Shown: piece by piece, positions 32,793 to 39,681 of the stretch
How the letters are laid out: each line of letters starts with the position of its first letter
How positions within the stretch are numbered: position 1 is the stretch's first letter
Assembly (NCBI GenBank): GCA_902569115.1
Contig: CACFTI010000011.1
Location: forward strand, 1 to 58,454
DNA length: 58,454 nt
Reading direction: 5' to 3'
From: an uncultured Verrucomicrobiota bacterium
Lineage (GTDB): Bacteria > Verrucomicrobiota > Verrucomicrobiia > Opitutales > Seribacteraceae
Notes under the pieces: model-generated
Told to the model about the DNA's origin: nothing
Database searches by the model: none
The model's input: only the letters and a program-made list of their open reading frames with translations
Made by a program: the position numbers and the translations under genes

Positions 32793-33734
32793 GTGAAAAT
32801 CTTTCATGACATACAAAAATCTTGCGACCAAAGGCTTAAGGAAATGGGCTTCCGAGCAGAAAGCTATCTCCTCCCTGGAGGTATCGGGATTAAATTCAAA
32901 AGCCACCCGAATCATAATCTTCATGAATTACAAACTCTTCCCATAATTGAATGCGACCTATCTGAACTGGAAAACTTTGATCTCAATTACCTAAATCAAG
33001 AGAGAATTTCATCTCTCATTCTACCGCACAAAACCAAAATACCTTTCTCTGAGTTAAACTCGTTCAATCTGAGGAGGTTAAGAGCAGCGAAAGCGATATC
33101 TTCTGACTTTGAATCCTTATCCAAGCATCCATTAGAAATTCTTGAACTCCCAAATACCTCTGCCGAAAACTTAAGGTTTTGCGAAAACATGCCTTTACGA
33201 AAACTAGACCTTTCAGGAGTGCAGATAAGCCATATCCCATTATTAAGAAAAGCCCAAATTACTAATTTAAATCTCTTTAAGACTAACATTGAAGAGATTA
33301 GTGACTTTGATTGCAATGCACTGGAAGGAATCGTTCTCTCCGGTTCTCCCATCAAAAGCATTACATTTCTTTCGGACGCGAAAAAATTACTCAAAGTAGA
33401 AATCAGGGCAACGCCTGTAAGTGATCTATCTCCCTTAGCCAACGCTCCTATCAAGGAGCTTCATCTACCTGGTTCGCAGGTTAAATCTATTGATTGTCTC
33501 GCTTACTTACCCATAGAAACCCTAAATATCATTGGTCTTGAGTTGGAGGATATTAATTGCCTATCAACCTTACCACTTAAGTATCTTTCTTTATCACCTG
33601 AGCTTTTCAAAAGAGACGATTATGAATTCATTGCTAATCTCAAAGTTCCTTTTCTTCGAGGCCCTGCCGATTCCCCTGAACAGACCGCAGAGGAATTCTT
33701 TCAAAAACACATCAATTCAGTAACCATGGAATAA
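32793..33734 (+). CDS. Leucine-rich-repeat protein, unknown function
   Basis: The 313-residue protein has irregular leucine-rich repeats of about 20-23 residues from residue 100 to 270 (LEILELPNTSAENLRF, LRKLDLSGVQISHIP, LNLFKTNIEEISDF, IVLSGSPIKSITFL, EIRATPVSDLSPL, ELHLPGSQVKSID, LNIIGLELEDINCL). No signal peptide or membrane helix is visible. Similar PVC proteins often carry a kinase domain, absent here. The start is GTG at 32793. It may be a scaffold for protein binding. Confidence 0.7.
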   Translation: MKIFHDIQKSCDQRLKEMGFRAESYLLPGGIGIKFKSHPNHNLHELQTLPIIECDLSELENFDLNYLNQERISSLILPHKTKIPFSELNSFNLRRLRAAKAISSDFESLSKHPLEILELPNTSAENLRFCENMPLRKLDLSGVQISHIPLLRKAQITNLNLFKTNIEEISDFDCNALEGIVLSGSPIKSITFLSDAKKLLKVEIRATPVSDLSPLANAPIKELHLPGSQVKSIDCLAYLPIETLNIIGLELEDINCLSTLPLKYLSLSPELFKRDDYEFIANLKVPFLRGPADSPEQTAEEFFQKHINSVTME

Positions 33735-33787: not shown

Positions 33788-35218
33788 GTGGCGAGAGATA
33801 CACTGGCAAACTTGAGGGACTATTACGATGTTGTGGTAATAGGCAGCGGCTTAGGCGGACTAACGGGAGCGAATTACCTCGCAAAACAAGGGCATTCGGT
33901 TCTTTTGCTTGAGCATCATTATCAGTTCGGGGGATTGGCTACCTGGTTCAAGAGAGCTGGGGGTCATATTTTCGACATTTCCTTGCACGGATTTCCTGTG
34001 GGAATGATTAAATCCTGTAAGCGATATTGGACGAAAGAAATCGCTGACTCCATAGTCCAACTCAAAAACATTCGCTTCATAAACCCGCAATATGATCTAA
34101 AAACTACCTTTGATCGGTCGGATTTCACCAGGATTTTACAGACTACCTTCAATATAGCTAAAAATAAAGTTGAAGAATTTTACGATCACATGGCCAACAT
34201 GGATTATTTTGCGAATGACAAACGCTCAATTGGCGATCTTCTTGAAGAATTCTTCCCGGGGCGCAATGAAATCAAAAGGCTTCTGCTTGAACCAATTTCG
34301 TACGCGAACGGTTCATCCCTTGTGGATCCTGCAATCGCTTACGGTATTGTCTTTTCCAACTTCATGAAAAAAGGGATTTACACCTTTAAGGATGGAACGG
34401 ACTCATTGATTAAGAAAATGGTGAAGGAACTCAGAAACAACGGAGCTGACCTACGCAGACAATGCTTGGTCGAAGAAGTTGTTACAAAAAAAGTCGATGA
34501 AAAGCACAAAGTGGAAGGGGTTGTTGTTAACGGGAAAAAAATTCGGTGCGGAGCTGTGCTTTCTAACGCAAATCTCAAAAACACCATAGAAAAGCTATTC
34601 GGGTTATCCAAGTTACCTAAAGAATTTGCTGATCAGGCAAAATCAGTAAGGCTAAATTCCACATCCTGTCAGGTCTACATTGGTCTAAAGAAAGGCGTAA
34701 GTATCCCTGATGTGGGGGATCTTATATTCACTTCTGAATCTCCCTCATTTTCAACTGAAGAACTCACCGATTTTCATACCACAAGCAGGACATTCTCTGT
34801 TTATTACCCTGACACCAGACCGGAACGCAAAGAACCTCGCTACAGCATCGTTGCGTCGATCAACGCAAAATGGCAGGATTGGCAGAAACTTTCAGATGAA
34901 GACTATACTCAGGCAAAAAATAGACTTTGTGAAGAGTCTGTAGTAGCTCTGGAAAAGATTATTCCAGATATTCGGGGTAAAATTGATCACTTGGAAGCAG
35001 CGACACCCCGTACCATTCAGCATTACACGCATCACGCATCTGGTGCCTCCTTTGGCACCAAGTTTGAAGGATTGGATGTTTCATCTGAATTACCAGAATA
35101 TGCTCCCGGTCTCTACCACGCCGGATCCGTAGGAATTATAATGTCAGGATGGTTAGGCACCATCAACTACGGAGTGATTACAGCAAACAAGATAGATCGA
35201 TTTCTTCGAGGAAAATAA
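33788..35218 (+). CDS. CrtI/retinol-saturase-like FAD-dependent oxidoreductase
   Basis: The 476-residue protein starts with an FAD-binding Rossmann motif, [28 protein letters not shown], followed by [22 protein letters not shown]. It is a member of the phytoene desaturase, carotenoid isomerase and retinol saturase superfamily. The C-terminal [22 protein letters not shown] corresponds to the second FAD motif. The start is GTG at 33788. It begins a gene run ending with OleA and OleB. Saturation or desaturation of an isoprenoid or polyene chain is the family function; the substrate here is unknown. Confidence 0.82.
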
Positions 35219-35303
35219 CCTTGTCCTGTTATTATAAACTCTTTCTTTAATTGTTTCCTCACATTCGCCTTTTTATTCCCCAATCATTTAAGAACTAATT
35301 TAC

Positions 35304-35738
35304 ATGGAAGAAATCCACCGAAGAATTCCGCACCGTCCCCCTTTTCTTTTTGTAGACCGAATTATTGAAATCAACGAGGAAGATGCCACCTGTGAGCTTA
35401 AAGTTCGTGAAGATTTAGACATTTTCAAAGGACATTATCCCAATAACCCAATATTCCCCGGTGTACTTTCTTGTGAATCTGTTTTTCAAACGGGTGCGAT
35501 TTTTTTATCTGAAAAAATAGGTAAAGAAGCACTAAATAATAAATCCGCGACCCCAGTTCTCTCGCGAATTCGGGACGCCCGCTTCAAAAGAATGATCAAA
35601 CCCGGAGACCTGATCGAAATAAAAGTCTATCTGCAGGAGCAAATTGGTAAATTTTATAACCTTCGAGGAGAAATTCGATTGTCAGGCAAAGTGGTAACAA
35701 CCGTGTCTTTTGCTTTGGCGTTGGTGGAGGAAGCCTAA
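35304..35738 (+). CDS. FabZ-like 3-hydroxyacyl-ACP dehydratase (hot-dog fold)
   Basis: The 144-residue protein has the FabZ/FabA features: an early RIPHRPPFLFVDRI, then FKGHYPNNPIFPGVLSCESVFQTGAIF. The His of GHYP and the Glu in SCESVFQ correspond to the catalytic His/Glu (or Asp) pair. Length fits FabZ. A general fabZ is usually elsewhere with lpxA, so this could be a dedicated copy for the local lipid pathway. It is separated from the FabI-like gene by 8 bases. Confidence 0.82.
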   Translation: MEEIHRRIPHRPPFLFVDRIIEINEEDATCELKVREDLDIFKGHYPNNPIFPGVLSCESVFQTGAIFLSEKIGKEALNNKSATPVLSRIRDARFKRMIKPGDLIEIKVYLQEQIGKFYNLRGEIRLSGKVVTTVSFALALVEEA

Positions 35739-35746
35739 AATCCAGA

Positions 35747-36556
35747 ATGTCTAATTTTCTAGGAATTGCTAACAAAACCTTTTTGGTTACAGGATTCGCG
35801 AACCGAAAGAGTGTGGCATGGCATGTTGCTGAAAGCCTTGAAAAAGAAGGATCAAAGATCATTTACACCGTTCGAAGTCAAAAAAGACATACAGAACTTC
35901 TTGCACTTAAACCCAATGCTGAAGTGATCATATGTGATTTTGAAAAAGAACAGGACATCAATTCCTTACGTTCTTACTTAGAAAGTATGGAAAGCAACTC
36001 CATTCATGGCGTACTCCACTCGGTTGCCTATGCTAATTACTCAGAAGGCTTGAAACCTTTTCATGAGACTAATGTAAAAGACTACCTTCAAGCCACACAG
36101 ATTTCGTCCTTCTCATTAGTTGAATTAGCTAATGCTTGTAAACCTGCTTTACAAAAAGACGCCTCGGTCGTCACTATTGGAATATCGTCCATTGATGTTA
36201 CCGCTGAAAACTACGGATACATGGCACCAATCAAGGCATCCCTTGAGGCAAATGTTCGTTATTTAGCAAAATCATTTTCTTCTTTTAGTTCGGTCCGTTT
36301 TAATTCGGTCAATGCCGGACCGCTCAAAACATCTGCCTCTGCGGGTATTCCTGGATATTTAAAAAATTATCTATTTGCTGAAAAACTAACCTTCCGAAAA
36401 AAGGCACTTATGACGATTGAAGTTGCTAACACTGCAGTGTTCCTGCTTAGTAACGCGTCTTCTGGAATTAACGGTCAGGGAATCGTCGTGGACGCAGGCA
36501 TGGGATTCAACTATTTCGAGAAAGAAGTGGTGGATTCCACAATGGATATTAAGTAA
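35747..36556 (+). CDS. FabI-like enoyl-ACP reductase (SDR)
   Basis: The 269-residue SDR starts with NKTFLVTGFANRKSVAWHVAESL, the FabI-like cofactor loop. Later features are VLHSVAYANYSEG, an active-site Y-x6-K motif (Tyr and Lys in NYGYMAPIKASLEANVRYLA), and NAGPLKTSASAGI. These are all FabI-type. The reductase uses NAD(P)H to reduce the enoyl chain. A specific SDR of another reaction cannot be excluded. The stop and the OleA start overlap by one base (TAATG). Confidence 0.85.
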   Translation: MSNFLGIANKTFLVTGFANRKSVAWHVAESLEKEGSKIIYTVRSQKRHTELLALKPNAEVIICDFEKEQDINSLRSYLESMESNSIHGVLHSVAYANYSEGLKPFHETNVKDYLQATQISSFSLVELANACKPALQKDASVVTIGISSIDVTAENYGYMAPIKASLEANVRYLAKSFSSFSSVRFNSVNAGPLKTSASAGIPGYLKNYLFAEKLTFRKKALMTIEVANTAVFLLSNASSGINGQGIVVDAGMGFNYFEKEVVDSTMDIK

Positions 36557-37587
36557 TGAGTTTCAATAAAGTCATAATTGAAAAAATGGCTTACACGCTA
36601 CCTCCTCATATCGTTTCTTCTCAGGAACTCGAGGAAAACCTAGCACCTATTTATGAGCGGTTAAACCTGCAAGTGGGCCGCCTCGAATTAATGACAGGAA
36701 TCAAGGAAAGAAGATTCTGGGATAGCACTCAACAGGCTTCCCAATCCTCAGCCGAAGCCGGTATTAAATTACTTAATGAAGGAAATATCGATCCCAATAA
36801 AGTTGATCTGCTTATCCATTCTGCAGTTTGCCGTGACCGACTCGAACCTGCAACGGCCTCTTATGTCCATAACTTAATGAGCTTAGGACCAGATACGCAG
36901 ATTCTGGATGTTTCGAATGCATGCCTTGGTTTCCTCAATGCATTAATTTTAGCAGGAAGCATGATAGAGCAGGGGACGATTAATCGAGCTATCATTGTGG
37001 CTGGTGAAAACGGCAAGCCCCTTGTTGATGAGACTGTTCGATTGCTAAACGATAGTAATTTCGACCGAAAATCGATTAAACCATACTTTGCAAACCTTAC
37101 TATTGGTGGCGGTGCCGTTGCATGGTCGCTTTGCAGAGAAGCACCTAAACACTCCTCATGCCCAAGGTTATCGCAATTTGCCAGTTCCACCGATACGAGT
37201 CACAATCGACTTTGCGAGGGAGATCAATCGATTGGTGGTATGCTTATGCAAACCGATTCTGAAGAGCTTCTCCATGCTGGCATTAAAGTTGCCACTCTAG
37301 CTTGGGAGAAATTCTTACAAGTCAGCAAATGGGACCCACAATCACCTGAATTAGTGGTCACTCATCAAGTTGGAAAAGCCCACCAACTTGAAATTGAGAA
37401 AGCCTTAGGCTACGACACCGCAAAAAGTTTCACATCCTATGAATCACTGGGGAATTGTGGTTCTGTCTCCCTCCCCATTACTTACACATTGGCATGTGAG
37501 CAGAACCAGGACTACTTGAGAAAGAAATCAGCATTACTCGGAATAGGAAGCGGTCTTTCCAGCCTTATGCTTGCCCTAAACAATTAA
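36556..37587 (+). CDS. oleA: OleA-like acyl-CoA condensing enzyme (thiolase superfamily)
   Basis: The 343-residue thiolase-fold protein matches OleA, which joins two fatty acyl-CoAs by a non-decarboxylative Claisen condensation in long-chain olefin synthesis. The catalytic Cys is residue 123 (SNACLGF), His 270 (VTHQVG) and Asn 300 (LGNCGS). The OleA-type Glu at residue 97 (RDRLEPATAS) lies 26 residues before the Cys, as Glu117 and Cys143 do in the Xanthomonas enzyme. FabH proteins lack this spacing and surrounding sequence. It overlaps the FabI-like gene by one base and its stop overlaps the oleB start. No OleC or OleD is present in the window. Confidence 0.88.
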   Translation: MSFNKVIIEKMAYTLPPHIVSSQELEENLAPIYERLNLQVGRLELMTGIKERRFWDSTQQASQSSAEAGIKLLNEGNIDPNKVDLLIHSAVCRDRLEPATASYVHNLMSLGPDTQILDVSNACLGFLNALILAGSMIEQGTINRAIIVAGENGKPLVDETVRLLNDSNFDRKSIKPYFANLTIGGGAVAWSLCREAPKHSSCPRLSQFASSTDTSHNRLCEGDQSIGGMLMQTDSEELLHAGIKVATLAWEKFLQVSKWDPQSPELVVTHQVGKAHQLEIEKALGYDTAKSFTSYESLGNCGSVSLPITYTLACEQNQDYLRKKSALLGIGSGLSSLMLALNN

Positions 37588-38465
37588 TGTCTCTACCAGA
37601 TTTAATTCGAAAAGAGTATCCATTTAAGGGCCACCATTTCACTCTTAAAAATGGCTTTAAAATTCATTACCTGGATGAAGGAAGTCCCGAAAACCTACCT
37701 ATTCTTTTTTTGCACGGGAACCCTACCTGGTCGTTCTTTTATCGAAACCTTGTCTCTTCTTTCAAAAACCAGTTCAGATGCATAGCCCCTGACCACTTAG
37801 GATGCGGTCTTTCGGAAAAGCCATCCTCCAAGGAATTTGCTTACAACCTGGAAGGCCATAGCAGTAATTTACTCGAACTGCTTGATACATTAGAAATTAA
37901 AAAATTTAATTTAATCGTACATGACTGGGGTGGGGCGATAGGGCTTTCAGCCTTAAGAGGTAATTTTTCAAGAATCAATAAACTTGTGCTTTTGAATACA
38001 GCATCTTTCTTATCAAATGATGTTCCGAAACGAATCCAACTATGCCGTATTCCTCTAATTGGAGAATTCTTCGTCCGTATGCTCAATGGCTTCGCTGGTC
38101 CTGCCTCTTGGATGGCAACCACAAAAGGACTAGCTACTTCGGTTAAAAAAGGATTTCTATACCCATACAATGACTGGGCCAACAGAGTAGCCATCTGGAA
38201 TTTTGTAAAAGACATACCTCTCGAAAATAATCATCCCACCAAACAATTTCTTCAGGAAACTGAAACTGCTCTAACAAACCTTTCTGATACTCCGATATTG
38301 GCATGCTGGGGCATGCAGGATTTTTGCTTTCATTCGGGTTTTTTGGAGCAATGGCAGAAAAAGTTGCCCCATTTAGAAACTCTTACTTGCGAGAATGCTG
38401 GACACTACTTACTGGAGGATTCTTTTGATCTGTTTCAAGAAGGAATCAAATCCTTCCTTAGCTAA
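37587..38465 (+). CDS. oleB: OleB-like alpha/beta-hydrolase (beta-lactone decarboxylase)
   Basis: The 292-residue alpha/beta-hydrolase is like OleB and haloalkane dehalogenases. The start has YPFKGHHFTLKNGFKIHYLDEG and LFLHGNPTWSFFYRNLVSSF. The nucleophile is Asp113 in VHDWGGAIG, the late His is residue 273 (AGHYLLED), and a third acidic candidate occurs in WGMQDF. OleB decarboxylates beta-lactones to cis-olefins. It is coupled to oleA by a one-base overlap. The usual OleC partner that makes the beta-lactone is missing locally. Confidence 0.87.
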   Translation: MSLPDLIRKEYPFKGHHFTLKNGFKIHYLDEGSPENLPILFLHGNPTWSFFYRNLVSSFKNQFRCIAPDHLGCGLSEKPSSKEFAYNLEGHSSNLLELLDTLEIKKFNLIVHDWGGAIGLSALRGNFSRINKLVLLNTASFLSNDVPKRIQLCRIPLIGEFFVRMLNGFAGPASWMATTKGLATSVKKGFLYPYNDWANRVAIWNFVKDIPLENNHPTKQFLQETETALTNLSDTPILACWGMQDFCFHSGFLEQWQKKLPHLETLTCENAGHYLLEDSFDLFQEGIKSFLS

Positions 38466-38518
38466 TTGACTTCTCATGTGCACTTGCAATTTTTTTCATT
38501 CAGTGCTGCTTTAACAAG

Positions 38519-38743
38519 GTGGAACCCAAAAAAAGCAATCTTCGCAGTCGTGCAGAGCGAGGAGGTAATGTTGTACCCATTGATCCCTATGATAGCACCT
38601 CGCGGGCATATAAAAAGGAAACTCCAAAACGGGCGGAAACTGGTTTTAGCCTTTATCTTACCTTAGCTGTTTGGGTGTTCATGCTTATATTCTTGTTTTT
38701 TATTTATGAAATGGCAGTGGAGACATGGGAGAGGCTGAAGTAA
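38519..38743 (+). CDS. Small single-helix membrane protein
   Basis: The 74-residue protein has a charged N-terminal part (KKSNLRSRAERGGNVVPIDP) and a membrane helix at residues 44-67 (SLYLTLAVWVFMLIFLFFIYEM). It begins with a GTG at 38519, after an AAGG-type ribosome-binding region, and its stop overlaps the start of xerC/D by 19 bases. I know of no family. It could be a membrane partner of the OleA/OleB enzymes, but this is guesswork. Confidence 0.5.
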   Translation: MEPKKSNLRSRAERGGNVVPIDPYDSTSRAYKKETPKRAETGFSLYLTLAVWVFMLIFLFFIYEMAVETWERLK

Positions 38744-39681
38744 AAGACACTTCAACAAAAAACAAAGTTGCGAGCTTTCTCCTGCCGAAAGTCGCTGATC
38801 AATATTTAGAATATATTGCCAAAGAAAGAAGACTTTCAACCTACACCTACCGGAATTACCAACACTCTATTATTTCATTCTTCAAGTGGTTATCGAACTC
38901 TAACCAACAAATGGAGATTCAAAATGTGGGCAGGATGGAAGCTCGTTCTTATTTAGTAGAAGCCCAGAACTCACTTGCTAAAAGTACCCTACGCAATCAT
39001 TTCTCTGCCCTTAAAGGGCTTTTCAGGTACGCACAACAAAGAGGTGTTTGTAACTCGAATCCCTTTGCTAACCTAACATTACCAAAGTTAGAGAAAAACC
39101 TTCCCAAATTCCTTTCTGAAAAACAGGCTAAATCTTTGTTACAAGGCACAAATTCATCAAAAACTGAAAATCCGAAAACCGAATTCATTAAATTTCGGGA
39201 TCTTTTAATACTTAAGATTTTATATGCAGGTGGCTTACGGGTAAGCGAACTGGTTTCACTAAATTATTCTGATATCGACTTTACAAAAGCCACCTTACTG
39301 GTTTCCGGCAAAGGGGGCAAAGAAAGAATTTCTCCTATAGGTAGCAATGTATTGCAGGACATTGTTTTCTTTCGCAATACTTACAGTAAAACTACTTCTA
39401 CTGACTCACCGGTTATAATTAATCAATCGGGCAAGAGGCTTAGTGTAAGATCTGTACAGTTAATTCTTAAAAAAAAGTTAAGAGAAGCCAACTTGCCTGA
39501 TGATATTTCACCCCATAAGTTAAGGCATTCCTACGCTACCCATTTGTTAGACAGGGGAGCAGACTTACGGGCAGTACAGGATCTACTGGGACACGCCAGT
39601 TTATCCACTACCCAAATCTATACTCATCTTTCAGTCGCTAAACTTAAAGAGACTCACAAAACTGCTCATCCGAGATCATAA
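38725..39681 (+). CDS. Tyrosine recombinase XerC/XerD
   Basis: The 318-residue protein has the N-terminal SAM-like core (YLEYIAKERRLSTYTYRNYQHSI) and the C-terminal catalytic domain. Active residues are the Arg of LYAGGLRVSELVSL, the Lys of SGKGGKERISP, HKLRHSYATHLLDRGADLR, LLGHASLSTTQIYTH and the nucleophile Tyr in the last of these. The HPRS tail is typical of Xer proteins, which resolve chromosome dimers at dif. C or D cannot be decided. No recombination site is evident near it. Confidence 0.9.
   Translation: MGEAEVKDTSTKNKVASFLLPKVADQYLEYIAKERRLSTYTYRNYQHSIISFFKWLSNSNQQMEIQNVGRMEARSYLVEAQNSLAKSTLRNHFSALKGLFRYAQQRGVCNSNPFANLTLPKLEKNLPKFLSEKQAKSLLQGTNSSKTENPKTEFIKFRDLLILKILYAGGLRVSELVSLNYSDIDFTKATLLVSGKGGKERISPIGSNVLQDIVFFRNTYSKTTSTDSPVIINQSGKRLSVRSVQLILKKKLREANLPDDISPHKLRHSYATHLLDRGADLRAVQDLLGHASLSTTQIYTHLSVAKLKETHKTAHPRS

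Follow-up and report, generated by a model that had tools for sequence, protein, structure and literature searches.

Why should OleA and OleB, two enzymes of long-chain olefin synthesis, be encoded in one operon with a FabZ-like dehydratase, a FabI-like enoyl reductase and a CrtI-like flavoenzyme (CrtI1), and where are OleC and OleD? The question is raised by a 58,454-nt stretch of DNA (the window) from an uncultured Verrucomicrobiota bacterium of the order Opitutales, family Seribacteraceae (GCA_902569115.1, contig CACFTI010000011.1). According to its open reading frame (ORF) list and translations, five ORFs lie on the + strand at 33788-38465 in the order CrtI1, FabZ-like, FabI-like, OleA, OleB, with one-base overlaps between the FabI-like and OleA genes at 36556 and between OleA and OleB at 37587. 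The original prediction, made from the window alone, was of an operon at 33788-38743 lacking OleC and OleD, whose place the other three enzymes take. The ORF coordinates bear out the five same-strand genes, the OleA/OleB overlap and the start of the span, but the genes stop at 38465 and the proposed end runs into a XerC-like ORF (38725-39681, named by sequence reading) that comes after OleB. The headline claim of a pathway without OleC and OleD stands refuted; what is odd about the locus is real, and it extends further than first described. We favor, at a probability of a little under 0.6, the reading that the operon represents the oleAB portion of a split Ole pathway, joined in the Opitutales to a module for chain building on acyl carrier protein (ACP) and for desaturation.

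Judged by sequence, the OleA and OleB of the window are correctly identified. OleA scored 374 bits against the NCBIfam model NF006720 (PRK09258; cut-off 285), as against just 73-91 bits for general FabH models, and its top PDB matches were the 3row/4kti/5vxd "3-oxoacyl-[ACP] synthase III" group (183 bits; next group 51 bits), which we take to be X. campestris OleA. The residues Glu97, Cys123, His270 and Asn300, originally described as intact, are indeed near-invariant (at least 97%) among 49 aligned OleAs. A published OleA signature, EPxx[AS]x(14,18)DxxNACL, given in the portion of PMC7158056 available to us, is present in the window protein and in 48 of 48 fetched relatives. Model scores, PDB neighbors and signature, rather than a tree, thus settle the predicted choice of OleA over FabH. 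The intact Asp113 and His273 proposed for OleB were likewise near-invariant in 45 aligned rows. The window OleB scored 142, 138 and 124 bits against three haloalkane-dehalogenase models, all under their cut-offs; an OleB taken as yardstick from the canonical oleABCD operon of L145 (genome G361), with which it shares 38% identity, scored 163, 139 and 141 bits. The OleB family cut-off of NF002873 (466) was reached by neither protein (138 and 139 bits for window and canonical OleB, respectively) and, since a canonical-operon OleB also fails it, does not discriminate OleB. OleB adjoins OleA in the window and in most relatives.

A search of the genome containing the window (G000; 2.38 Mb, 97 contigs, 70% complete, the window being on contig C11) located oleC at G000:C4:78152-79768, followed immediately by oleD. 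The OleC query had two matches in this genome, on contigs C4 and C1 and none on the window's contig, and no OleD was seen in the window on reading its ORF list; the predicted lack of OleC and OleD therefore holds locally but not for the genome. The G000 OleC scored 472 bits against NF006754 (PRK09274/olefin beta-lactone synthetase; cut-off 478, L145 yardstick 733) and 375 bits against the specific model NF045786 (cut-off 900, yardstick 679), and the best family for OleD was NF042422 (2-alkyl-3-oxoalkanoate reductase) at 326 bits, below a cut-off of 580 that the yardstick (430) also misses. OleC and OleD were adjacent in 26 of the 30 OleC loci returned; two of the other four lie at a contig edge, and L087 and L088 had no OleD within the 1.5 kb examined. 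Of the standard ole set that the original prediction proposed to look for elsewhere in the genome, oleC and oleD were thus present, and neither a second oleA (the only other OleA-query match in this 70% complete genome being just 23% identical) nor, at E<=1e-30, a second oleB was found. The arrangement consequently looks like one complete Ole pathway split into oleAB on C11 and oleCD on C4, in place of a canonical single oleABCD cluster, rather than an additional locus beside a second standard set. With oleCD in the same genome, the extra genes are additions to OleC and OleD and not replacements.

Across the Opitutales, the ole pathway is co-inherited with FabZ-, FabI- and CrtI-type enzymes, with few exceptions. 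In a search of 38 genomes (G000 and 37 relatives, those of the window's genus being 57-95% complete), OleA (E<1e-80) was found in 29, and the FabI-like gene in exactly those 29. CrtI1 occurred in the same 29 and as a contig-end fragment in G006, and OleB (at least 43% identity) again in the same 29, with a 35%-identical protein in G029. All of the 29 but G031 have an operon-type FabZ-like gene (28 genomes); G027 has one as well, without the other operon genes. OleC was found in 34 of the 38 genomes, including all 29 that bear OleA; the occurrence of OleD was taken from fetched loci only. Three members of the order, G027, G029 and G030, are without OleA, OleC, the FabI-like gene and CrtI1 together. 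An even sample of the class (335 genomes, 63 in the Opitutales and 272 outside) gave OleA (E<=1e-50) in 64 genomes, comprising 61 of the 63 in-order genomes and 3 of the 272 outside, and CrtI1 (E<=1e-70) in 61 of 63 and 0 of 272; one in-order genome, G316, had neither gene. The total of 63 rests on matchless rows being listed by kinship, and the OleA and CrtI1 searches agree on it. These counts come from related genomes and are not independent events, and the joint absences (G027, G029, G030 and G316) are few.

The comparison of OleA neighborhoods that had been suggested as a check, run across the relatives, recovered the full five-gene order in 21 of 28 OleA loci and FabZ-FabI-OleA in 25. Among the best 80 named CrtI1 loci, drawn from at least 573 confirmed relatives among at least 588 matched stretches so that CrtI1 beyond the order is possible, the order CrtI-FabZ-FabI-OleA-OleB was found in 49, part of it in 12 and CrtI alone in 19, some of these at contig ends. 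These 80 include Cerasicoccus, Coraliomargarita, Pelagicoccus, Opitutaceae and Puniceicoccaceae, others being named just as Verrucomicrobia or "bacterium". Recurrence of the same order in both sets places the association of the five genes far above chance.

CrtI1 is the most conserved gene of the set, sharing 61-67% identity with aligned orthologues from other families. It scored 55.5 bits against Amino_oxidase (PF01593), 108.5 bits against carot_isom (cut-off 586.9) and 72.8 bits against crtI_fam, far below every carotenoid cut-off listed. An AlphaFold2 model built from 17 orthologues (predicted local distance difference test score, pLDDT, 80.3; predicted template modeling score, pTM, 0.79) had as its best PDB match the gamma-carotenoid desaturase 4rep (TM 0.74, E 6.8e-23), followed by other amine-oxidase-fold enzymes. 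The model is consistent with a flavin desaturase, isomerase or saturase, the structure not telling which. CrtI1 thus shares the fold and the FAD-binding motif of the CrtI/CrtD/CrtISO family but differs from it in scoring far below the carotenoid cut-offs and in being kept in near-complete genomes without a phytoene/squalene synthase (PF00494). That domain was found in 15 of the 38 genomes; CrtI1 carriers without it include G036 (100% complete), G026 (97%), and G009, G031 and G032 (95%), and G027 and G030 have PF00494 without CrtI1. A role as a carotenoid enzyme is disfavored by these near-complete carriers, with the caveat, taken up below, that G000 has a PF00494 protein. In that genome the domain (G000:C29:20394-21122) lies inside a 771-aa frame, an apparent fusion, and similar long frames occur in several genomes of the genus.

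The FabZ- and FabI-like genes appear, from their sequences, to be dedicated copies, extra to a FabV-type reductase and to other FabZ-type genes. The FabZ-like protein scored 103.9 bits against NF000582 (cut-off 113) and over cut-off against PF07977. His and Glu are the catalytic residues of FabZ dehydratases, and H44 and E58 are near-invariant in 39 rows. The FabI-like protein scored 172 bits against NF006369, short of the equivalog cut-off of 370, and over cut-off against PF13561; it has the Tyr-x6-Lys motif that is catalytic in FabI, Y156 and K163 being near-invariant in 41 rows. A FabV-type enoyl reductase (PF12241) is encoded in 31 of the 38 genomes, among them G000 and three that are ole-less (G027, G029 and G030); this rules out the FabI-like protein as the cell's only enoyl reductase. 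Further FabZ-type matches lie on contigs C9 and C28 of G000, and most genomes have such matches besides the operon FabZ (none in G017, 57% complete); many are in frames of 427-482 aa, which from their size would be LpxC-FabZ fusions, a family for which the model search lists an entry. The solitary FabZ-like gene of G027 (50% identical) stands beside a XerC-like gene, so named by sequence reading (L120:7785-9336), and the pair is possibly a relic of the operon.

When neighboring genes were clustered and followed up, part of the order proved to encode three further proteins upstream of CrtI1 and invariably on its strand: a ketosynthase (KS), an ACP and another CrtI-like protein (CrtI2), which shares 25% identity with CrtI1. 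Of the 163 loci examined, some of which are overlapping records of one genome, 125 hold CrtI1, and CrtI2 lies upstream in 28 of these at distances from overlap to 5.4 kb (<300 bp in 10); where KS-ACP-CrtI2 does not directly adjoin CrtI1, 0.5-5.4 kb separate them. All eight genes (KS, ACP and CrtI2 with the five of the window) are present in 20 of the 28, nine of them with a CrtI2-CrtI1 gap of <300 bp (L134, L176, L181, L182, L195, L218, L221, L229 and L231). At a threshold of >350 bits there were 26 KS loci, 20 of them among the best 80 named loci; weaker KS matches in L058 and L234 (31-33% identity) fall below it and outside the 26. CrtI2 was found within 2 kb in all 26 KS loci and ACP in 25, the 26th (L223) having an ACP match in an overlapping frame. 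The active-site motifs are kept throughout, with the ACP Ser motif LDSMD in 27 of 27 and the KS Cys motif in 26 of 26; the KS of L232 scored 317 bits against FabF TIGR03150 (cut-off 494). Twenty of the loci fetched from other Opitutales combine genes for ACP, FabF, FabZ and phytoene-dehydrogenase-like proteins; the window itself has only CrtI1-FabZ-FabI. In the three other genomes of the window's genus for which a CrtI2 locus was fetched (G009, G011 and G012), KS-ACP-CrtI2 is on a different contig from oleAB. The original idea that FabZ and FabI prepare dedicated acyl chains, with CrtI altering their unsaturation, gains indirect support from the co-inheritance with OleA, the presence of FabV- and FabZ-type genes besides, and this upstream set in part of the order.

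Immediately ahead of KS-ACP-CrtI2, and sharing its strand, three genomes of the window's genus encode a sigma-54-type response regulator (L232:7744-9306, L233:5355-6917 and L234:3838-5433; NtrC-type by a family call made for L232 only). Such a regulator stands no more than 1.5 kb before KS in 12 of the 26 KS loci, and may control the module. A sigma-54 promoter near the operon itself was rejected: matches numbered 5 in the window against 5.42 expected and so give no signal. In G011 (L234:10937-13276), what look like housekeeping genes of type II fatty acid synthesis (FASII), for another KS, an ACP and a FabG-like protein, lie about 2.4 kb from KS-ACP-CrtI2. No radical-SAM gene was recognized among the 14 commonest neighbor families, no search being aimed at such genes. 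PfaD over cut-off was found in 0 of the 38 genomes (weak matches in G007 and G026 reached 17-20 bits against 449), and a polyunsaturated fatty acid (PUFA) synthase was rejected as the source of the chains on this count.

In the mechanism that we propose, the FabF-type KS, housekeeping FabG, FabZ and FabI would assemble an acyl chain on the dedicated ACP and reduce it in part, and one or both CrtI-type flavoenzymes would desaturate or isomerize the ACP-bound chain or else the final hydrocarbon. OleA would condense two chains head-to-head, OleD would reduce the product, OleC would close the beta-lactone and OleB would release CO2. The outcome, made without a PUFA synthase and probably destined for the membrane, would be a long-chain (poly)unsaturated hydrocarbon; both this product and the substrate of CrtI, acyl-ACP or hydrocarbon, are putative. 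The gene set hints at an unrecognized route to highly unsaturated hydrocarbons in the order of this marine bacterium. We advance only tentatively, and with doubt prevailing somewhat, the more specific proposal that the Opitutales have a discrete type II, PUFA-synthase-independent polyunsaturated-hydrocarbon route, in which ACP, KS, FabZ and FabI with two CrtI-type flavoenzymes work on the ACP-bound chain and are co-inherited, and often co-located, with oleAB.

Several observations weigh against an Ole pathway joined to such a module. FabZ, FabI, OleB, OleC and OleD all score below curated equivalog cut-offs, and the literature consulted names no product for any member of the Opitutales. The co-inheritance is broken by G016 (92% complete), which keeps oleC-oleD but is without OleA, OleB, FabI-like and CrtI1, likewise by G005, G007 and G024 (62-69% complete), by G006 with OleC and the CrtI1 fragment, and by G013 with none of these genes; in the class sample, G138 has CrtI1 without OleA and G367 OleA without CrtI1, both in-order. 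OleA is apart from the other genes in G028, G031 and G034 (3 of the 28 OleA loci), so the linkage is not obligatory, and the only FabZ found in G031 is of housekeeping size. In 97 of the 125 CrtI1 loci no CrtI2 was seen, and 11 further regions near CrtI1 in other in-order genomes (L235-L245) had neither CrtI2 nor KS nor ACP, the flanks being limited in both cases. An opposite-strand gene between CrtI2 and CrtI1 in L175 means that a single transcript is not assured everywhere. No ketoreductase was seen in the module loci, where no search aimed at one was made. Finally, the PF00494 protein of G000 means that CrtI1 could in principle meet terpenoids there.

The last point, together with the commonness of the families and the carotenoid enzymes as CrtI1's nearest models, would suit the view that these are ordinary lipid genes merely side by side, FabZ and FabI being housekeeping and CrtI1 a carotenoid enzyme. 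We consider it improbable given the conserved gene order and joint absences, the FabV-type and other FabZ-type genes elsewhere in the genome, and CrtI1 in near-complete genomes without PF00494. The originally predicted replacement of OleC and OleD by FabZ, FabI and CrtI, giving an olefin or ketone without a beta-lactone, was suggested by the lack of OleC on the window's contig and of a visible OleD in the window; it is not borne out, its strong form being refuted by adjacent oleCD in G000 and by OleC in 29 of 29 OleA-bearing genomes, and what is left of it has a negligible chance of being right.

More can be said for the same module with the CrtI-type enzymes acting after OleB, stepwise on the released hydrocarbon as CrtI does on phytoene, FabZ and FabI only tailoring the chains. 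Carotenoid desaturases act on free hydrocarbons, and CrtI1, the most conserved member, is predicted to have their fold. CrtI2, however, lies beside KS in 26 of 26 KS loci and beside ACP in 25, so that an ACP-bound substrate fits better, at least for CrtI2, and we regard action after OleB as unlikely, with perhaps the best claim among the alternatives. An oxygenated end product (beta-lactone, long-chain ketone or polyene acid), with the Ole enzymes recruited otherwise, has a precedent in the oleACD sets without oleB that make beta-lactones in Actinobacteria, as described in the part of PMC7064751 at hand, and agrees with the silence of the literature consulted on an Opitutales product. Against it stand the presence of OleB, coupled to OleA, and the Verrucomicrobia olefin production or ole genes that passages of PMC5673642 and PMC7158056 credit to Sukovich 2010; it seems to us a rather poor prospect, if slightly better than mere adjacency of lipid genes. 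The split pathway joined to a chain-building and desaturation module remains our preferred reading.

Known here is OleABCD itself; new is its co-inheritance in the Opitutales with FabZ-, FabI- and CrtI-type enzymes and, in part, with KS-ACP-CrtI2. G000 resembles the OleABCD pathway of Xanthomonas, Shewanella and Micrococcus in having homologues of all four proteins, the OleA signature, and oleA next to oleB and oleC next to oleD, but differs in distributing them over two loci. The canonical operon of L145 is without the CrtI-, FabZ- and FabI-like genes that accompany the window's oleAB, and these go unmentioned in the ole gene contexts covered by the available part of PMC7064751. To judge from excerpts, oleABCD has been reported in Opitutae metagenome-assembled genomes (MAGs) and interpreted as carbon storage (PMC5673642), and oleC in Opitutaceae MAGs (PMC10176705). 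The survey in PMC7158056, as far as its accessible text goes, reported Verrucomicrobia but retained OleA matches only with oleBCD homologues within 5 kb, a filter that could miss split ole loci. A full-text literature search, mostly judged without opening the texts, yielded no recognized description of CrtI-, FabZ- or FabI-like genes with oleA.

The closest likeness, compared by gene description in partly available papers (PMC2649909, PMC4790861), is to the ladderane and polyunsaturated hydrocarbon-type FASII clusters of Kuenenia and Desulfotalea, which share ACP, a FabF-type KS, FabZ, phytoene-dehydrogenase-like flavoenzymes (two in Kuenenia and three in Desulfotalea) and the lack of a PUFA synthase; in the Opitutales the genes stand instead with oleA-oleB and a FabI-like gene. 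The portions seen of Rattray et al. 2009 (PMC2649909) state that Desulfotalea has C31:8 and C31:9 hydrocarbons but no known PUFA pathway and that its FASII clusters carry phytoene-dehydrogenase-like genes; a novel anaerobic PUFA route was proposed there, in which such enzymes extend FASII. Kuenenia enzymes formed no lycopene in a heterologous test, according to the part of PMC4790861 consulted. In marine gammaproteobacteria, a dedicated Pfa PUFA synthase supplies ole chains, for example for C31:9 (excerpts of PMC6463001 and PMC3098273), as the module would in the Opitutales; Pfa is multidomain, whereas the proposed Opitutales parts are discrete proteins, a type II alternative to the synthase feeding OleA in Shewanella. 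Partial texts also mention a "ladderane-type" 3-oxoacyl-ACP synthase encoded on an Opitutales contig (PMC8692599), "aryl polyene" calls in other Opitutales (PMC8277422, PMC10927696) and "ladderane" clusters of possibly unknown functions in Verrucomicrobiota and other non-anammox groups (PMC9902471).

If the more specific proposal of a discrete, PUFA-synthase-independent route is true, that route would be the genetic basis put forward in 2009 for the C31:8/C31:9 hydrocarbons of organisms without Pfa genes, and would suggest that some of the "ladderane" calls in Verrucomicrobiota are olefin-precursor clusters. Our preferred reading joins two literatures, on ole hydrocarbons and on FASII extended by phytoene-dehydrogenase-like enzymes, and makes the 2009 proposal testable, the gene set being present nearly throughout an order with cultured members and thus offering a testable gene-to-product hypothesis. 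It would also make available a compact group of separate enzymes with which to produce unsaturated hydrocarbons. The features of the operon are listed below.

Features of the oleAB operon in the window
Feature	Position	Strand	Details
CrtI/CrtISO-like flavin adenine dinucleotide (FAD) oxidoreductase (CrtI1)	33788..35218	+	476 aa, GTG start
FabZ-like 3-hydroxyacyl dehydratase	35304..35738	+	144 aa, His44/Glu58
FabI-like enoyl reductase	35747..36556	+	269 aa, Tyr156-x6-Lys163
OleA, head-to-head acyl-condensing thiolase (by sequence)	36556..37587	+	Glu97/Cys123/His270/Asn300
OleB-like alpha/beta hydrolase (putative beta-lactone decarboxylase)	37587..38465	+	Asp113/His273

Upstream of CrtI1, the window encodes a leucine-rich-repeat-like protein (32793-33734) with weak matches to internalin models and no Pfam match; in 12 loci, a member of a homologous family stands next to CrtI1 and shares its strand. 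On the other side, a 4-alpha-glucanotransferase-like gene, so named by sequence reading (for example L136:4731-6275), lies beside OleB on the opposite strand in 18 of the 23 loci that bear the family.

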